In this document: positions 4,695-63,564 of the stretch, in pieces
Numbering within the stretch: the stretch's first letter is position 1
Layout of the letters: each line of letters begins with the position of its first letter
Program-made: the position numbers and the translations under genes
Notes under the pieces: generated by a model
Seen by the model: only the letters and a program-made list of their open reading frames with translations
Told to the model about the DNA's origin: nothing
Database searches by the model: none
Source of the DNA: Geobacter sp. DSM 9736
GTDB lineage: Bacteria > Desulfobacterota > Desulfuromonadia > Geobacterales > Geobacteraceae
Length of the DNA stretch: 64,000 nt
Assembly: GCF_900187405.1 (NCBI RefSeq)
Contig: NZ_LT896716.1
Coordinates: forward strand, 620,001 to 684,000
Direction of reading: 5' to 3'

Positions 4695-4709
4695 TGGCAT
4701 GCCATGTGC
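4695..4709 (+). promoter_or_regulatory. Sigma-54 promoter of nifV
   Basis: TGGCATGCCATGTGC has GG and GC exactly ten bases apart, matching the -24/-12 consensus TGGCAC-N5-TTGC apart from small changes. Transcription would start near 4721, about 70 bases before nifV. Nitrogen-fixation genes commonly use sigma-54. Confidence 0.7.
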
Positions 4710-4740
4710 TATCCCCATTTCATGGTTTACAGCGGCAACG

Positions 4741-4775
4741 AAGCCTCACAGCCATTCCGGCGTGGGGCTTTTTTC
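4741..4775 (+). terminator. Intrinsic terminator inside the nifV leader
   Basis: AAGCCTCAC (4741-4749) pairs with GTGGGGCTT (4762-4770), giving nine pairs with one G-T, followed by TTTT. It lies between the sigma-54 promoter and the nifV ribosome site, so it would stop nifV transcription unless antiterminated. A small hairpin with hexaloop AACGAA (4734-4745) overlaps its 5' arm. Confidence 0.65.
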
Positions 4776-4792: not shown

Positions 4793-5941
4793 ATGAGAGA
4801 ATGCACCGGAGAAGTCATTATAACGGACACTACGCTGCGTGACGGCGAACAGGCCGCAGGCGTGGTATTCAGCCTGGGCGAGAAAATGGCCATTGCCAGG
4901 ATGCTTGATAGCATTGGCGTGCAGGAGCTTGAATGTGGTATACCAGCGATGGGTGAGGAAGAGCGGGCTTCCATACGAGCACTGGTCGATATGGGCCTCT
5001 CCGCTCGGCTCATCACGTGGAACAGGGCTGCCAAGGCCGACATAGAAGCAAGTCTCGACTGCGGCGTCAATGCCGTCGATCTCTCTCTGTCCGTCTCCGA
5101 CATCATGATCGAGCGAAAGCTGCGAAAGAACCGCGAGTGGGTAAGGAATCAGCTGAAAGAAGCCCTCGGTTTCGCGAAGCAGCACAATCTCTATGTCTCC
5201 ATAGGAGGGGAAGATGCGAGCCGCGCCGACATCTACTTCCTTATAGAACTCCTTGAGATAACGAAGGCGTTCGGTGGCGACCGTTTCCGTTTCTGCGATA
5301 CCCTCGGTATTCTCGATCCCTTTTCCATGCATGAAAAAATCCGTGCCTTGCGGCGGGCGGTGCCTGACATGGACTTGGAGGTTCACACTCATAACGACCT
5401 CGGCATGGCAACGGCCAACGCCATCGCCGGAGCAAGGGGGGGAGCCCGGTTCGTCAGTACTACCGTCAACGGGCTAGGGGAACGGGCTGGAAATGCCGCA
5501 CTCGAAGAGGTCGTTATGGCGCTCAGGCATGCCTGCGGGACCGATTGCGGCATCGAAACCAGGAGGTTGGGAGAACTCTCACGTCTCGTTGCGGACGCAT
5601 CACGCAGGGTTGTGTCTGAATGGAAACCGGTGGTCGGAGAGCGCGTGTTTTCGCACGAATCGGGGGTGCACGCAGACGGGGTGCTCAAGGACCCGTCCAA
5701 TTATGAAGGCTTCGACCCGGCAGAGGTAGGCCTGAGCAGGTTTTTTGTGGCGGGGAAGCACTCCGGTGGGAGCGGCCTGGCCGAGCGGTACCGGCAGCTT
5801 GGTATCTCTATCGGCAAGGGTGAGGCCTCCGTTCTCCTGAAGAAGGTGCGAGGGCTTGCCCAGCAGTTGAAGCGCCCACTTGACGACCGCGAGCTCATCG
5901 ATCTTTATGGCTGTTTTTCGTGCAGACTGCATGCGGCCTGA
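4793..5941 (+). CDS. nifV: Homocitrate synthase NifV
   Basis: This 382-residue protein condenses acetyl-CoA and 2-oxoglutarate to homocitrate, the organic acid of the nitrogenase FeMo-cofactor. It opens with ITDTTLRDGEQAAGV, the DRE-TIM metallolyase active-site strand. HTHNDLGMATANA carries the metal-binding histidines, and VNGLGERAGNAALEE is also seen. The length matches NifV (about 380) rather than the longer LeuA. The ATG at 4793 follows a clean AAGGAGG site; the frame continues upstream only through leader sequence. It is followed by modABC, which supplies molybdate for the same cofactor. Expression is probably under sigma-54 plus leader termination control. Confidence 0.93.
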   Translation: MRECTGEVIITDTTLRDGEQAAGVVFSLGEKMAIARMLDSIGVQELECGIPAMGEEERASIRALVDMGLSARLITWNRAAKADIEASLDCGVNAVDLSLSVSDIMIERKLRKNREWVRNQLKEALGFAKQHNLYVSIGGEDASRADIYFLIELLEITKAFGGDRFRFCDTLGILDPFSMHEKIRALRRAVPDMDLEVHTHNDLGMATANAIAGARGGARFVSTTVNGLGERAGNAALEEVVMALRHACGTDCGIETRRLGELSRLVADASRRVVSEWKPVVGERVFSHESGVHADGVLKDPSNYEGFDPAEVGLSRFFVAGKHSGGSGLAERYRQLGISIGKGEASVLLKKVRGLAQQLKRPLDDRELIDLYGCFSCRLHAA

Positions 5942-8694: not shown

Positions 8695-8709
8695 TGGCAT
8701 GCCTCGTGC
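8695..8709 (+). promoter_or_regulatory. Sigma-54 promoter of the outer-membrane/glnK/amtB unit
   Basis: TGGCATGCCTCGTGC matches the sigma-54 -24/-12 pattern with ten bases between GG and GC. It is nearly the same as the nifV promoter in this window. The predicted start is near 8721, leaving a leader of about 165 bases before the first gene. Confidence 0.7.
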
Positions 8710-8762
8710 TTTTTGGTTGAAGCAGCAGACGAGAGATTTTGATGTGATACGGACCAGGCAAT

Positions 8763-8797
8763 GGCGCCTTTTCTCCAGGAGGGGAAAGGCGCCTTTT
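8763..8797 (+). terminator. Intrinsic terminator inside the leader
   Basis: GGCGCCTTT (8763-8771) pairs with AAAGGCGCC (8785-8793), with extra weaker pairs toward the loop, then TTTT. It stands between the sigma-54 promoter and the first gene. A hairpin with hexaloop AATGGC (8756-8769) overlaps its 5' arm, so the two would exclude each other, as in an antitermination switch. Confidence 0.65.
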
Positions 8798-9745: not shown

Positions 9746-10099
<354 letters not shown>

Positions 10100-10102
10100 A
10101 GA

Positions 10103-10223
10103 AGGTTGTTGAAAAACAGCCATCTCGACGCCGTCCTCGAAAGCCGCCGTGTGCGGCGTAGCGCTGCTACGCCTCCGTGGGGCTTCCTGCGGGTGCGACG
10201 ACCTGGCTATTTTTGAACAACCT
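10103..10223. repeat. Dispersed palindromic element, copy C
   Basis: The outer arms AGGTTGTTGAAAAACAG and ATTTTTGAACAACCT frame the common core TGCGGCGTAGCGCTGCTACG. It fills most of the glnK-amtB gap and is the cleanest copy in the window. It lies in the opposite orientation to copies B, D and E. Confidence 0.85.
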
Positions 10224-10274
10224 CAGTTTTTCAGCAGGCGAACAAGAACCATATAAACGCTGACGGAGGTTCAT

Positions 10275-11726
10275 ATGAAGCTTAGAATCTGGATGACATA
10301 TCTCATTGCTCTGCTTACCCTGGCGGCTCCTGTAGCGGCTTTAGCCGAGGAGGCAAAACCTGCCGCGGTCCAGGCTGTGACTGCCGCGACCGCACAGGAG
10401 GCGCCGGCTGCAGCGCCGGCTGCTGCTCCTGCCGATGCGGAGAAGCCCAAAACCGTCGATCCGGTGCTCAACACCGGTGATACTGCATGGATGCTCGTTT
10501 CGAGCGCCCTCGTGCTCTTCATGATTCCCGGCCTCGCTTTCTTCTATGGTGGCATGGTGCGGCAGAAGAACGTCCTCTCTACACTGATGCATTCCTTCGT
10601 GGCGATGGGGATCGTGGGGGTGCAATGGGCGGTGATAGGCTACTCCCTTGCGTTCGGTCCCGATGTCGGGGGAGGTCTCCTCGGAGATTTTTCCAAGGCC
10701 CTCCTGAACGGTCTCATCTCCTTCAAGGATGGCGCCCCCGTCTACACGCTCTTCCAGAACGTGGCCAGCGAGCCCGGCTCCATTCCCGAATACGTCTTCG
10801 CAATGTACCAGTGCATGTTCGCCATGATCACGGTTGCTCTGATTTCGGGCGCACTTGCCGAGCGGGTGAAGTTCTCCGCCTACTGCCTCTTCGTCCTGCT
10901 CTGGACCACACTGGTATATGATCCGCTGGCTCACTGGGTGTGGATGGTTGATGGCTGGCTCTTCAAGAAAGGCGCCCTCGATTTCGCAGGCGGTACCGTC
11001 GTCCATCTTTCATCCGGTATCTCCGCTCTCGCTGTTCTTATATTTCTTGGAAAGCGTCACGGATTCCCGCACGAGAGGATGGCGCCACACAGCCTTCCGC
11101 TGACGATGCTCGGAGTCGGAATGCTGTGGTTCGGCTGGTTCGGCTTCAATGCGGGATCCGCGATTGTCGGCGTGAACAACTCGGACGCTGCCGGAGGGCT
11201 GGCGGGCCTCGCTTTCGCAACTACAACCATTGCTCCTGCAGCTGCAGGTCTTTCCTGGATGCTCGCCGAATGGATTCATGCAGGCAAGCCTTCTGCCCTG
11301 GGCTTCGGATCAGGGGTCGTCGCCGGCCTGGTCGTCATCACTCCCGCCGCCGGATTCGTGCAGCCAGGAGCCGCAATCATCATGGGGCTGGCTGCCGGTG
11401 TGGTATGTTACCTGGGTGTCCTAATGAAGGCACGGCTCAAGTATGACGATTCTCTGGATGCCTTCGGTGTGCATGGTATCGGCGGCACCTTCGGCGCGAT
11501 CCTTACGGGCGTTTTCGCATCGGTCGGTGCTACCGGCCTAATGTCCGGCAATTTCAGCCAGTTCATGACCCAGTTGATTGCCGTTGTTGCTGCAGGCGCC
11601 TATGCTTTCCTGGTGACCATCGGCATTGCTTTCCTCCTGGACAAAACCATCGGCCTGCGAGTGGAGAAAGAGGATGAAATCATGGGCCTCGATACGACTC
11701 AGCATTCGGAGAGTGCCTATAACTGA
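10275..11726 (+). CDS. amtB: Ammonium transporter AmtB
   Basis: The 483-residue protein begins with a signal-like segment and an Ala/Pro-rich stretch (residues 20-55). The eleven-helix Amt core starts at NTGDTAWMLVSSALVLFM. Conserved features include FYGGMVRQKNVLST, the pore histidines in FAGGTVVHLSSG and FGVHGIGGTFG, and GMLWFGWFGFNAGS. It conducts ammonium across the inner membrane as a trimer, gated by GlnK. The start follows GGAGGTTCAT. The Ala/Pro-rich spacer after the signal is longer than in E. coli AmtB. A strong terminator follows at 11749. Confidence 0.96.
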   Translation: MKLRIWMTYLIALLTLAAPVAALAEEAKPAAVQAVTAATAQEAPAAAPAAAPADAEKPKTVDPVLNTGDTAWMLVSSALVLFMIPGLAFFYGGMVRQKNVLSTLMHSFVAMGIVGVQWAVIGYSLAFGPDVGGGLLGDFSKALLNGLISFKDGAPVYTLFQNVASEPGSIPEYVFAMYQCMFAMITVALISGALAERVKFSAYCLFVLLWTTLVYDPLAHWVWMVDGWLFKKGALDFAGGTVVHLSSGISALAVLIFLGKRHGFPHERMAPHSLPLTMLGVGMLWFGWFGFNAGSAIVGVNNSDAAGGLAGLAFATTTIAPAAAGLSWMLAEWIHAGKPSALGFGSGVVAGLVVITPAAGFVQPGAAIIMGLAAGVVCYLGVLMKARLKYDDSLDAFGVHGIGGTFGAILTGVFASVGATGLMSGNFSQFMTQLIAVVAAGAYAFLVTIGIAFLLDKTIGLRVEKEDEIMGLDTTQHSESAYN

Positions 11727-11972: not shown

Positions 11973-12716
11973 ATGGAGAACCTGCTCGCGACATACCTGG
12001 AACCCGAAGATGGGGACACCGAACGGTTTCTCGATCAATTGGCAGTCAACGAGAAGATGTCGGAGCTGGGGCGGCTGACGGCAGGCATCGTGCACGAGTT
12101 GAATACCCCGCTTTCGGTGATAGTTTCCGCGGCGCAGCTGATCCTGCGGGAGCGGGATGTCCCGGAATACGTTGCCGAACTGGTGGAGCGGATCGGGGTC
12201 GAAGCGCAACGGCTGGCTCAGTTAACGAGAGGTATTCTCTCCTTTGCGGGCAACGGTGGCGGGAGCTGCGAAGCCGACATCAACGACGTGCTGCGCGAGG
12301 TCATGACCTTTCTGAAATACGAGGCGCAAAAGCGATCGATCACCGTGACCGAGTCGCTCGATTACAGCCTCCCTGCCATCACTACCGACAGCAACAGATT
12401 GAAGCAGATATTCATCAACCTCATCATGAACGCTCTTCAGGCAATGGAGGGGGGCGGTAATCTCAAACTTCAAACGACGTGGGGAAACGGGCGGGCAGAA
12501 ATCGTGGTTGCCGATAGCGGGCCGGGGATCCCTGTGGAGCATCTCCACCTGATTTTTGATCCGTTCTTTACGACCAAGGCGCCGGAGAAGGGCACCGGCC
12601 TCGGGCTTTACATCACGAAGAGGCTTACGGAATCCCTCGGGGGTGACATCCGTGTGAACAGTACCCCGGGAAGGGGCGCAACATTCGTTATCTCCTTTCC
12701 CCTCTCTTCTACTTGA
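11973..12716 (+). CDS. Soluble sensor histidine kinase (NtrB/GnfK-like transmitter)
   Basis: The 247-residue protein is a bare transmitter with no membrane segment and almost no sensor domain. The H-box [17 protein letters not shown] carries the phospho-accepting histidine at about residue 41. The N-box ([10 protein letters not shown]), G1 (DSGPGIP), F and G2 (GTGLGLYI) motifs form the ATP-binding half. Such kinases phosphorylate a response regulator, and the input here may be protein-protein. Its position after amtB and behind a possible sigma-54 promoter suggests a nitrogen-regulatory role like GnfK of Geobacter, whose partner GnfR is an ANTAR antiterminator. No regulator gene is adjacent, so this is inference. 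Confidence 0.8.
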
Positions 12717-26820: not shown

Positions 26821-26857
26821 TTGAGTACAAAAAAGGGCATACGCCCACAAGCAATTT

Positions 26858-26958
26858 CTTATCAAGAGCGACCGAGGGACAGGCCTGATGACGTCGCGGC
26901 AACCTCCCGTCAGGGAAGGTGCCAATTCCTGCGGAACCAGACGGTTCCGGGAGATAAG
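26858..26958 (+). ncRNA. SAM-I (S-box) riboswitch
   Basis: P1 is closed by CTTATC and GATAAG. Conserved internal elements appear in order: TCAAGAG, GAGGGACAGGCC, GATGACG with CGGCAACC, and GGTGCCAATTCC. This is the class I SAM aptamer. It controls the two trans-sulfuration genes downstream, which are expected to be off when S-adenosylmethionine is plentiful. Confidence 0.93.
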
Positions 26959-26987
26959 GAAGAGCGATGCACCTCCAGGTGTACAAT

Positions 26988-40644: not shown

Positions 40645-43059
40645 GTGGCACTGAAAAAATCTGAGCTGTATTCTTCCCTGTGGGCCAGTTGCGATGAGTT
40701 GCGCGGCGGCATGGATGCCAGCCAATATAAAGACTATGTCCTTGTCCTTCTCTTTATCAAGTACGTGAGTGACAAGTATGCAGGTGTACCTTACGCTCCG
40801 ATTAAGATCCCCGACGGTGCGAGTTTCAAGGATATGGTCGCCCTTAAGGGGACCAGTGACATCGGGGACCAGATCAACAAAAAGATCATTGCTCCGCTGG
40901 CCAACGCAAACAAGCTGTCCGACATGCCCGATTTTAACGACGGCACCAAGCTTGGCAGCGGCAAGGAGATGGTTGACCGCCTCACCAACCTGATTGCTAT
41001 CTTTGAGAGTCCCGCTCTGGACTTCTCGAAGAACCGTGCGGACGGCGATGACATCCTTGGCGATGCCTATGAGTACCTCATGCGGCATTTCGCCACTGAG
41101 AGCGGGAAGAGCAAGGGCCAGTTCTACACGCCTGCCGAGGTCAGCCGGATCATGGCGCAGATCCTGGGGATACGGGAGGCGAAGACTACAAGCGCCACCA
41201 CCGTGTACGACCCCACCTGCGGCTCTGGTTCCCTCCTTCTGAAAGTTGCGGACGAGGCCCGGTCTGCCGTCACTCTTTACGGGCAGGAAAAGGATGCCAC
41301 CACCGCCGGTCTTGCCCGCATGAACATGATCCTGCACAACAACCCGACTGCCCTCATCGTTCAGGGGAACACCCTTGCCGACCCTAGGTTCAACGACGGT
41401 GGTGCACTCAAGACCTTCGACTACGTCGTCGCCAATCCCCCTTTTTCCGACAAGCGTTGGAGCAACGGCATCGACCCGCTCTACGACCCTTACGAGCGCT
41501 TCAAGCACTTGGGCGTGCCTCCTGGAAAGCAGGGGGATTACGCGTATCTCCTCCACATCGTCCGCTCCCTGAAGAGCGCCGGCAAAGGGGCCTGCATTCT
41601 GCCGCACGGGGTGCTCTTTCGGGGGAACTCCGAGGCGGAAATACGCCGCAACCTGATCCGCAAGGGTTACATCAAGGGGATCATCGGCCTTCCTGCAAAC
41701 CTCTTCTACGGCACCGGCATCCCGGCCTGCATCATCGTCATCGACAAGGAAGACGCCCATAGCCGCAAGGGGATCTTCATGATCGATGCCAGCAGCGGCT
41801 ACATGAAGGACGGTCCCAAGAACCGCCTGCGGGACCGGGATATACACAAGATCGTGGACGTGTTCAATAGACGCTCCGAGATACCGAAGTACGCCAGGAT
41901 GGTGAGTTTCGACGAGATCGAGAAGAACGACTTCAACCTCAACCTGCCGCGCTACATCGACAGCCAGCAGGCCGAGGATCTCCAGGATATCGAGGGGCAT
42001 CTGAAGGGGGGCATTCCGAAGGCCGATGTTGATGCGCTAGAAGCATACTGGGAGGTCTGCCCCCAACTCCGACAGACATTGTTCAGCAACAACCGTCCAG
42101 GGTACTTTGATCTGGCGGTGGAAAAAGCGGCCATCAAGCCGGCCATCTACGGTCATCCGGAGTTTGCAGCATTCATCGACCACATGAATGCCCTCTTTGC
42201 CGAATGGCGGGACCGCAGCGCCATGTCTTTACGGGAGCTGCAGGCGGGCTGCCATCCGAAGGAAGTCATCGCAGGCCTTTCCGAAGAGCTCCTTGCCCAT
42301 TACGACCGAGCGCCACTCATCGATCCGTACGCTGTCTACCAGCATCTGATGGACTACTGGGCGGAGACGATGCAGGACGATTGCTATCTTATTGCCGCTG
42401 ACGGCTGGAAGGCGGAGACCTACCGGGTGGTCGAGACGAAAAAGGGGAAGGACGGCAAGCCGGGCAAGCAGGTGGATAAAGGATGGGCCTGCGACCTCGT
42501 GCCAAAGGAACTCATCGTCGCCCGGTATTTCCGGAAAGAGCAGGAGGAAATCGACCGGTTGGCGGCAGAGGTTGAGACGATTTCGGCCACGATGACGGAA
42601 CTGGAAGAGGAGCATGGTGGTGAAGAGGGAGCATTTTCGGAACTGGAGAAGGTGAACAAGGCCAATGTCGCGGCCCGGCTGAAAGAGGTCAAGGGGGACA
42701 AAGAGGCGAAGGACGAGGCGGCTGCGCTGGGAGCGTGGCTGAAGCTGGCGAACGAAGAGGCGAACCTGAAGAAGCGGGTAAAGGAAGCCGAGGCGGCGCT
42801 GGATGCAAAGGCATGTGCGAAATATCCCAAACTCACCGAAGATGAGGTAAAGGCACTGGTAGTTGATGATAAGTGGTATGCAGCCCTTGATGCCGCAATA
42901 CATGGTGAGATGGACCGGGTAAGCCAGGCGCTTGCGGGGCGGGTGAAGGAACTGGCTGAGCGGTATGAAATGCCGGTGCCACGAATGGTTGAGCGCATCA
43001 CAGACCTTGAGGCGAAGGTCAATGCACACCTTGAGAGGATGGGGTTTGCATGGAATTGA
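40645..43059 (+). CDS. hsdM: Type I restriction-modification methyltransferase subunit
   Basis: The 804-residue protein has the HsdM N-terminal domain (SSLWASCDELRGGMDASQYKDYVLVLLFIKYVSD). The N6-adenine methylase core follows: YDPTCGSGSLLLKV for SAM and DYVVANPPFSDKRW as catalytic NPPF. It is about 300 residues longer than classic HsdM. The extra C-terminal part contains a long charged coiled coil (about residues 630-720) likely to contact HsdS. It modifies host DNA at the site set by HsdS. The start is GTG at 40645 with a TTGGAG site. It overlaps hsdS by 10 bases. Confidence 0.92.
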   Translation: MALKKSELYSSLWASCDELRGGMDASQYKDYVLVLLFIKYVSDKYAGVPYAPIKIPDGASFKDMVALKGTSDIGDQINKKIIAPLANANKLSDMPDFNDGTKLGSGKEMVDRLTNLIAIFESPALDFSKNRADGDDILGDAYEYLMRHFATESGKSKGQFYTPAEVSRIMAQILGIREAKTTSATTVYDPTCGSGSLLLKVADEARSAVTLYGQEKDATTAGLARMNMILHNNPTALIVQGNTLADPRFNDGGALKTFDYVVANPPFSDKRWSNGIDPLYDPYERFKHLGVPPGKQGDYAYLLHIVRSLKSAGKGACILPHGVLFRGNSEAEIRRNLIRKGYIKGIIGLPANLFYGTGIPACIIVIDKEDAHSRKGIFMIDASSGYMKDGPKNRLRDRDIHKIVDVFNRRSEIPKYARMVSFDEIEKNDFNLNLPRYIDSQQAEDLQDIEGHLKGGIPKADVDALEAYWEVCPQLRQTLFSNNRPGYFDLAVEKAAIKPAIYGHPEFAAFIDHMNALFAEWRDRSAMSLRELQAGCHPKEVIAGLSEELLAHYDRAPLIDPYAVYQHLMDYWAETMQDDCYLIAADGWKAETYRVVETKKGKDGKPGKQVDKGWACDLVPKELIVARYFRKEQEEIDRLAAEVETISATMTELEEEHGGEEGAFSELEKVNKANVAARLKEVKGDKEAKDEAAALGAWLKLANEEANLKKRVKEAEAALDAKACAKYPKLTEDEVKALVVDDKWYAALDAAIHGEMDRVSQALAGRVKELAERYEMPVPRMVERITDLEAKVNAHLERMGFAWN

Positions 43060-63452: not shown

Positions 63453-63564
63453 AATAAAAAAAGCCGGGGGCCGAAATGTGTGTATTTCGGCAACCCGGCT
63501 GTCTCGTTGAGACCCTGTAGGCTTTCCGCCCCATCCTCACGGATGGTTTAGTATTATCGTGTAC
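63453..63564 (-). ncRNA. GEMM-I riboswitch, cyclic-GMP-AMP type, with terminator
   Basis: On the minus strand: AATACTAAACCATCC, then GGATGGGGCGGAAAGCC, GGGTCTC...GAGACAGCCGGGTTGCCGA. These are the conserved joints of the GEMM-I aptamer. The base aligned with Vc2 position 20 reads A, the feature of cGAMP-selective GEMM-Ib members common in Geobacter. GCCGGGTTGCCGAAAT is followed by a complementary arm and CGGCTTTTTTT, forming the expression-platform terminator. The controlled gene starts at 63351; the 100 bases between show no other element. Confidence 0.88.

Follow-up and report, generated by a model that had tools for sequence, protein, structure and literature searches.

The window, by which we mean the whole stretch of 64,000 nucleotides of Geobacter sp. 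DSM 9736 that was analysed, positions 620001-684000 of contig G000:C1, carries a gene for an outer-membrane-type protein (omp) followed by glnK, amtB and a histidine kinase gene, together with nifV and modABC-type genes (Table 1). The omp product found no match in NCBIfam or Pfam and has relatives in 38 of the 48 genomes of the family. The kinase, which we take to be gnfK from its position beside amtB, is a candidate partner of GnfR. The glnK-amtB gap (10100-10240) holds gtagcgctgctacgcc-type palindromes that recur in other intergenic stretches of the same genome (L001, L077).

Table 1. Features of the omp-glnK-amtB and nifV regions (positions in the window)
Feature	Position	Strand	Remark
nifV-leader sigma-54 element TGGCATGCCATGTGCT	4695..4710	+	
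nifV-leader P2 hairpin GGC-AACGAA-GCC	4734..4745	+	predicted +1 just 13 nt upstream
nifV-leader intrinsic terminator	4740..4771	+	3' of P2
nifV, homocitrate synthase	4793..5941	+	TIGR02660
sigma-54 promoter element TGGCATGCCTCGTGCT	8695..8710	+	-24/-12 spacing
predicted +1 of omp-glnK-amtB RNA	~8721	+	from sigma-54 spacing
predicted leader RNA 5' end	8721..8755	+	lacks P1 hexaloop hairpin
P2 hairpin AGGC-AATGGC-GCCT	8756..8769	+	conserved in relatives
intrinsic terminator (8763-8793 plus T tract)	8763..8797	+	13 pairs
outer-membrane-type protein, 263 aa	8886..9677	+	label from the earlier note and a signal-like N-terminus
glnK-type P-II protein	9761..10099	+	PF00543
amtB ammonium transporter	10275..11726	+	TIGR00836, PF00909
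histidine kinase, no recognised sensor domain	11973..12716	+	PF00512, PF02518

Ahead of omp, a sigma-54 promoter element is followed by a hairpin, P2, and an intrinsic terminator whose 5' arm overlaps the loop and 3' arm of P2; start sites here and below are all predicted, as the C of the -12 element plus 12 nt. The P2 hexaloop (8760-8765) has A1, A2 and G4. Folded alone, the terminator reaches -22.6 kcal/mol (shuffle mean -11.4) and P2 -5.0 kcal/mol, so P2 needs help to win. From the predicted +1 to P2 no second hexaloop hairpin (P1) was found, and the RNA 5' of P2 folds no better than shuffles. Being without P1, the window leader departs from the standard dual-hexaloop target of ANTAR proteins. 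At Rfam gathering scores nothing in the 64-kb window matched at the leader; the only matches were a SAM riboswitch (26856-26960, + strand) and a c-di-GMP-I riboswitch (63486-63562, - strand).

The order of sigma-54 site, hexaloop and terminator is the same at nifV (4695-4771), where the promoter element TGGCATGCCATGTGCT differs from TGGCATGCCTCGTGCT at 2 of 16 positions. An earlier note on this DNA had described near-identical sigma-54 sites, a strong terminator overlapping AGGC-AATGGC-GCCT, an A1/G4 hexaloop at both leaders and a GGC-AANGNN-GCC motif at two terminators, and each of these observations held, both motif copies (loops AATGGC here and AACGAA at nifV) lying between the sigma-54 site and the terminator. 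The 12-mer GGCAANGNNGCC alone is nonetheless near chance in the window and not striking (3 matches vs 1.0 expected; at least 3 in 7 of 100 shuffles). Two of its three matches follow a sigma-54 site and precede a terminator; the third, GGCAAAGGGGCC at 41581-41592, is probably a chance match. That the motif is chance only was rejected on position and on its background among other terminators.

Genome-wide, the pattern plus a T tract gave 13 rows and a reversed control pattern 9, so that the pattern alone is weak and it is the terminator that separates true sites. Five distinct places are real terminators, namely those at nifEN, nifB, nifV, omp-glnK-amtB and nifH (nifV identified by family scan, nifE, nifB and nifH by sequence recognition). 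A sigma-54 promoter 5' of the terminator, a trait of GnfR-type regulons, is found at nitrogen genes of this genome, and all five leaders keep A1, A2 and G4, four of them without P1 and nifH alone with it. The nifB leader (L077, 8386-8465, contig G000:C1) has tandem terminators with one A1/G4 hexaloop apiece (AACGAA at the first, AAGGGC at the second), and two tandem terminators likewise occur at nifB of G035.

In 48 genomes of the family we surveyed 221 upstream regions of at most 450 nt, 44 of them for nifB, 45 for nifEN, 47 for nifH, 45 for nifV and 40 for omp. With loop letters left free, 149 of the 221 had a sigma-54 site, any hexaloop and an overlapping terminator, and 147 of these had an A1/G4 hexaloop (nifB 33, nifEN 19, nifH 45, nifV 19, omp 31); among all candidate loops, A at position 1 went with G at position 4 in 163 of 219. 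These two counts are free of selection, AANG in P2 having been required when dual and single leaders were chosen afterwards. The 74 regions with no detected A1/G4 leader were left out of later steps.

These figures bear on a reading in which an ordinary sigma-54 promoter precedes a constitutive or otherwise unrelated attenuator and AANGNN merely reflects terminator composition. Such a leader might well look as it does, given that the terminator 5' arm contains or adjoins the P2 loop and 3' arm, that AAAGGC can pair with the terminator's GCCTTT end and that the 12-mer is near chance in the window. Yet the upstream GGC arm of P2, which is outside the terminator, is kept, and the terminator arm starts at the loop start or 3' of it in 145 of 147 leaders. 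Moreover, over about 800 kb of scanned strand the A1/G4 hexaloop is found at the 5' arm of only 6 of 129 other terminators vs 22 of 23 leaders, the latter figure being partly circular since the label 'leader' was set by match to the leader set. With P1 present and covarying in relatives of the window leader (see below), we regard an unrelated attenuator as very unlikely.

P1 divides these leaders by gene. Under a strict rule (4 or more pairs, loop position 1 being A or G and position 4 G), which makes the counts partly a matter of construction, P1 was present in 92 of 147 leaders: 38/45 at nifH, 25/33 at nifB and 29/31 at omp, vs 0/19 at nifEN and 0/19 at nifV (Fisher p 3e-22 among gene classes, for rows that are related rather than independent samples). 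P1 is thus absent from all 38 detected nifEN and nifV leaders. A blind test that ignored loop letters and asked for at least 5 pairs gave, among best hairpins with six-base loops, G4 in 26/26 at nifH, 14/15 at nifB and 6/7 at omp, and A1 in 14/26, 14/15 and 6/7, respectively, which means that nifH P1 does not retain A1. Many other hairpins scored as tetraloops in this test, outer loop bases being able to close. At nifEN and nifV the blind test returned 0 hexaloops, and hairpins of any kind in just 4/19 and 1/19 leaders.

A P1 hidden further upstream was sought up to 150 nt 5' of single leaders, promoter included; at nifEN and nifV this gave weak scattered hairpins only, 95-146 nt 5' of P2 and before the predicted start, none of which recurs beyond one genus, bar an AT-rich nifEN pair (G035, G047). 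The P2 stem starts 13-32 nt after the predicted +1 in nifEN and nifV leaders and 7 nt after it in three nifB leaders (G002, G007, G009), to which two nifB leaders of another family (G085, G124) are similar as judged by eye. The strict rule leaves 55 single leaders, some with heptaloops or with hairpins resembling P1 that narrowly fail the rule (nifH of G034, G039, G040 and G042; nifB of G035, G036 and G041; omp of G004), and nifH of G014, single by the rule, has a match to R1, a model built from dual-hexaloop leaders; fewer than 17 leaders other than those of nifEN and nifV are accordingly single. At least one dual leader is combined with a single nifEN or nifV leader in 20 of 48 genomes.

For covariation, the 92 dual leaders were thinned by similarity to 53, and nifH of G002 was dropped as a probable chance hairpin, leaving 52. 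Across the whole structure, cells changed on both sides numbered 72, where shuffles gave 31.0 and slid controls no more than 15. In the P1 helix 91.3% of cells are paired, with changes on both sides in 5 of 6 pairs, and the P1 closing pairs are AC/GT in 89 of the 92 dual leaders. Covariation as proof of P2 pairing had to be rejected, its 3 core GGC/GCC pairs being without variation in all 52 rows and its outer pair being paired in 16 of 52; the case for P2 pairing is thus its unchanging sequence, its A1/G4 loop and analogy. The earlier note had proposed to look for covariation of this small hairpin and for its conservation: P2 is indeed conserved, albeit as sequence, whereas the stem covariation is seen in P1, which that note did not report.

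As for the protein that may read these leaders, the genome has one ANTAR protein (L001, 1486-2052), with receiver and ANTAR domains, whose gene closely precedes nifH on the same strand and whose ANTAR domain is 656 nt upstream of one sigma-54/hexaloop/terminator leader. From its domain make-up and its place by nifH, this GnfR-like protein may be an orthologue of GSU2822. Among solved structures, the putative antiterminator 1s8n is matched with E 5.3e-47 and EutV (6wsh/6ww6) with E 1.3e-31. Going by the accessible parts of PMC8934654, EutV residues at the RNA are Arg142, Lys143, Lys147, Lys149, Glu160, Tyr164 and Met172; six of the seven are kept in the GnfR-like protein and Tyr164 is replaced by Phe, according to a structure alignment read by hand with an assumed two-residue shift in numbering. 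With a sole ANTAR protein, its proximity to a leader, most EutV contacts kept and a motif that recurs family-wide at nitrogen genes, the shared antiterminator for which the earlier note had argued seems, from sequence, well supported.

We therefore consider it highly probable that the window leader is a sigma-54-driven, ANTAR-regulated attenuator and that the nifV, nifEN, nifB and nifH leaders are under the same protein. Promoter element, P2 and terminator, their conservation, and a single ANTAR protein close to a leader can be read from the DNA, and we infer from them RNA binding, phosphorylation, the nitrogen signal and the direction of regulation. RNA polymerase would start near 8721 and by default the terminator (8763-8797) would fold, so that transcription would stop before omp-glnK-amtB. 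When fixed nitrogen is short, a phosphorylated GnfR-like regulator may bind the AATGGC hexaloop of P2 on the nascent RNA, through A1 and G4, and by keeping the 5' arm of the terminator within P2 it would let transcription pass; the same protein would act on the four nif leaders. Support for an ANTAR attenuator comes from relatives of the window leader, 29 of 31 omp leaders with P2 carrying the dual-hexaloop target.

In a search of 141 genomes of the order with R1, at the loose bar of E <= 0.1, matches were found in at least 135, and ANTAR proteins in 129, so presence or absence says little. Among the matches listed, families f1 and f3 often have a best E below 1e-4, f2 has best values close to 1e-4, and f4 seldom gets below it. 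An R1 match was placed within 1.5 kb downstream of the ANTAR gene, on its strand and 141-1204 nt past the ANTAR domain, in at least 23 of 141 genomes (rows picked by eye, to which two ANTAR rows and a single R1 row were added for checking); three f4 cases (G085, G095, G124) are weaker, and in G085 and G124 R1 has taken the sigma-54 element for P1. R1 also finds nifH and nifB leaders, and by eye the genes 3' of its matches include glnK-amtB (G001, G007, G009, G036) and amtB (G005, G036, G058, G073). Matches before a large permease-like protein, again named by eye, occur in G005, G026 and G027 (L331, L332, L333), and this protein may be one more target connected with nitrogen scavenging.

Two genomes of one genus, G058 and G059 (100% and 99% complete), gave no ANTAR match, their best GnfR matches covering the receiver part only, as read from the ranges. 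That G058 nevertheless has dual-hexaloop leaders at amtB and an omp gene (L327, G058:C5:160000-173000) counts against an ANTAR attenuator. The gene may have been lost recently, be missing from the assembly or encode a diverged protein, or the leaders may have another reader. Leaders kept where an ANTAR gene goes undetected are what one might expect if P2 were read by a different RNA-binding protein or for another signal. However, an A1/G4 hexaloop over a terminator and the neighbourhood of ANTAR genes fit ANTAR specifically, and gaps or recent loss could explain a single genus, so to our minds a different reader is very unlikely.

This kind of regulon and the principle of a shared antiterminator are already known, from GnfR in Geobacter and from the ANTAR nif regulon of Pelobacter. 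For Geobacter sulfurreducens, Ueki and Lovley reportedly proposed in 2010 GnfK/GnfR antitermination at nif promoters with terminators, and their work is said to treat terminators and antitermination without a hexaloop element or one- vs two-hexaloop classes. Our leaders share with that system sigma-54 nif promoters followed by terminators and a receiver-ANTAR regulator. As far as PMC7962754 is accessible, it names gnfR and gnfK as regulator and kinase of nitrogen fixation. The accessible parts of PMC3369931 predict an ANTAR nif regulon in Pelobacter carbinolicus, with P-II and ammonium transporter matches in other species; its dual hairpins at nitrogenase transcription units resemble ours, but two hairpins were required in that search, which would miss single-hexaloop leaders.

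EutV/NasR/AmiR dual-hexaloop targets share with the window leader the A1/G4 hexaloop, the overlap of P2 with a terminator arm and a link to nitrogen genes (accessible parts of PMC3369931 and PMC8934654); unlike them, the window leader has no P1. In its relatives, the P1 closing pairs (AC/GU in RNA) are those conserved in eut targets (PMC3369931), and omp linkers have a median of 19 nt and a maximum of 27, whereas 14 nt impaired eutP (PMC3369931). Less expected than a shared regulator is the lack of P1 in the window leader and in every nifEN and nifV leader detected. Leaders that naturally have a single hexaloop may plausibly form a class of their own: one ANTAR protein would serve two classes of Geobacteraceae leaders, dual (nifH, most nifB, most omp/glnK) and true single (nifEN and nifV; here also nifB and omp-glnK-amtB), the terminator-overlapping hexaloop alone sufficing, in some leaders roughly 7 nt from where the RNA is predicted to start, and P1 being an element of recruitment or sensitivity that ranks operons rather than a requirement. 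For this fuller proposal we see even chances. Its single class is disfavoured because, as the accessible texts have it, EutV no longer induced eutP once P1 had been deleted, induction suffered with a linker of 14 nt (PMC3369931), and antitermination in vitro was lost when the linker was extended by 20 nt (PMC8934654); the P1 deletion likewise speaks against an ANTAR attenuator at the P1-less window leader. It is favoured because isolated P1 and P2 were bound by EutV with similar affinity (PMC8934654) and P1-less leaders are conserved. Single-hexaloop binding sites were foreseen in PMC8934654, as far as its text is accessible. In the literature searched, with most subscription papers beyond its reach, no natural single-hexaloop terminator leader is described, PMC8934654 alone brings ANTAR and a single hexaloop together, and no article joins ANTAR domain, nif genes and antitermination.

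Alternatively, the window leader may be a decayed dual-hexaloop target, no longer under efficient GnfR control and with P2 a remnant of little function. P1 being so common in omp leaders of the family and absent here would agree with decay, as would the R1 score of just 15.3 bits, with the P1 loop deleted and one P1 pair broken. P2 and the terminator are intact, however, the four P1-less leaders of this genome all retain A1, A2 and G4, and the nifEN and nifV leaders imply that leaders without P1 persist long, so we think decay rather unlikely.

Should single-hexaloop leaders work, the published rule that an ANTAR dimer has to visit two hexaloops if termination is to be prevented would need revision, and two-hairpin motif searches would have overlooked part of ANTAR regulons. 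Two leader classes in one organism offer a ready-made test of the role of P1. In these diazotrophs, ammonium uptake (glnK-amtB) and the nitrogenase genes would be tied to one RNA-level switch.
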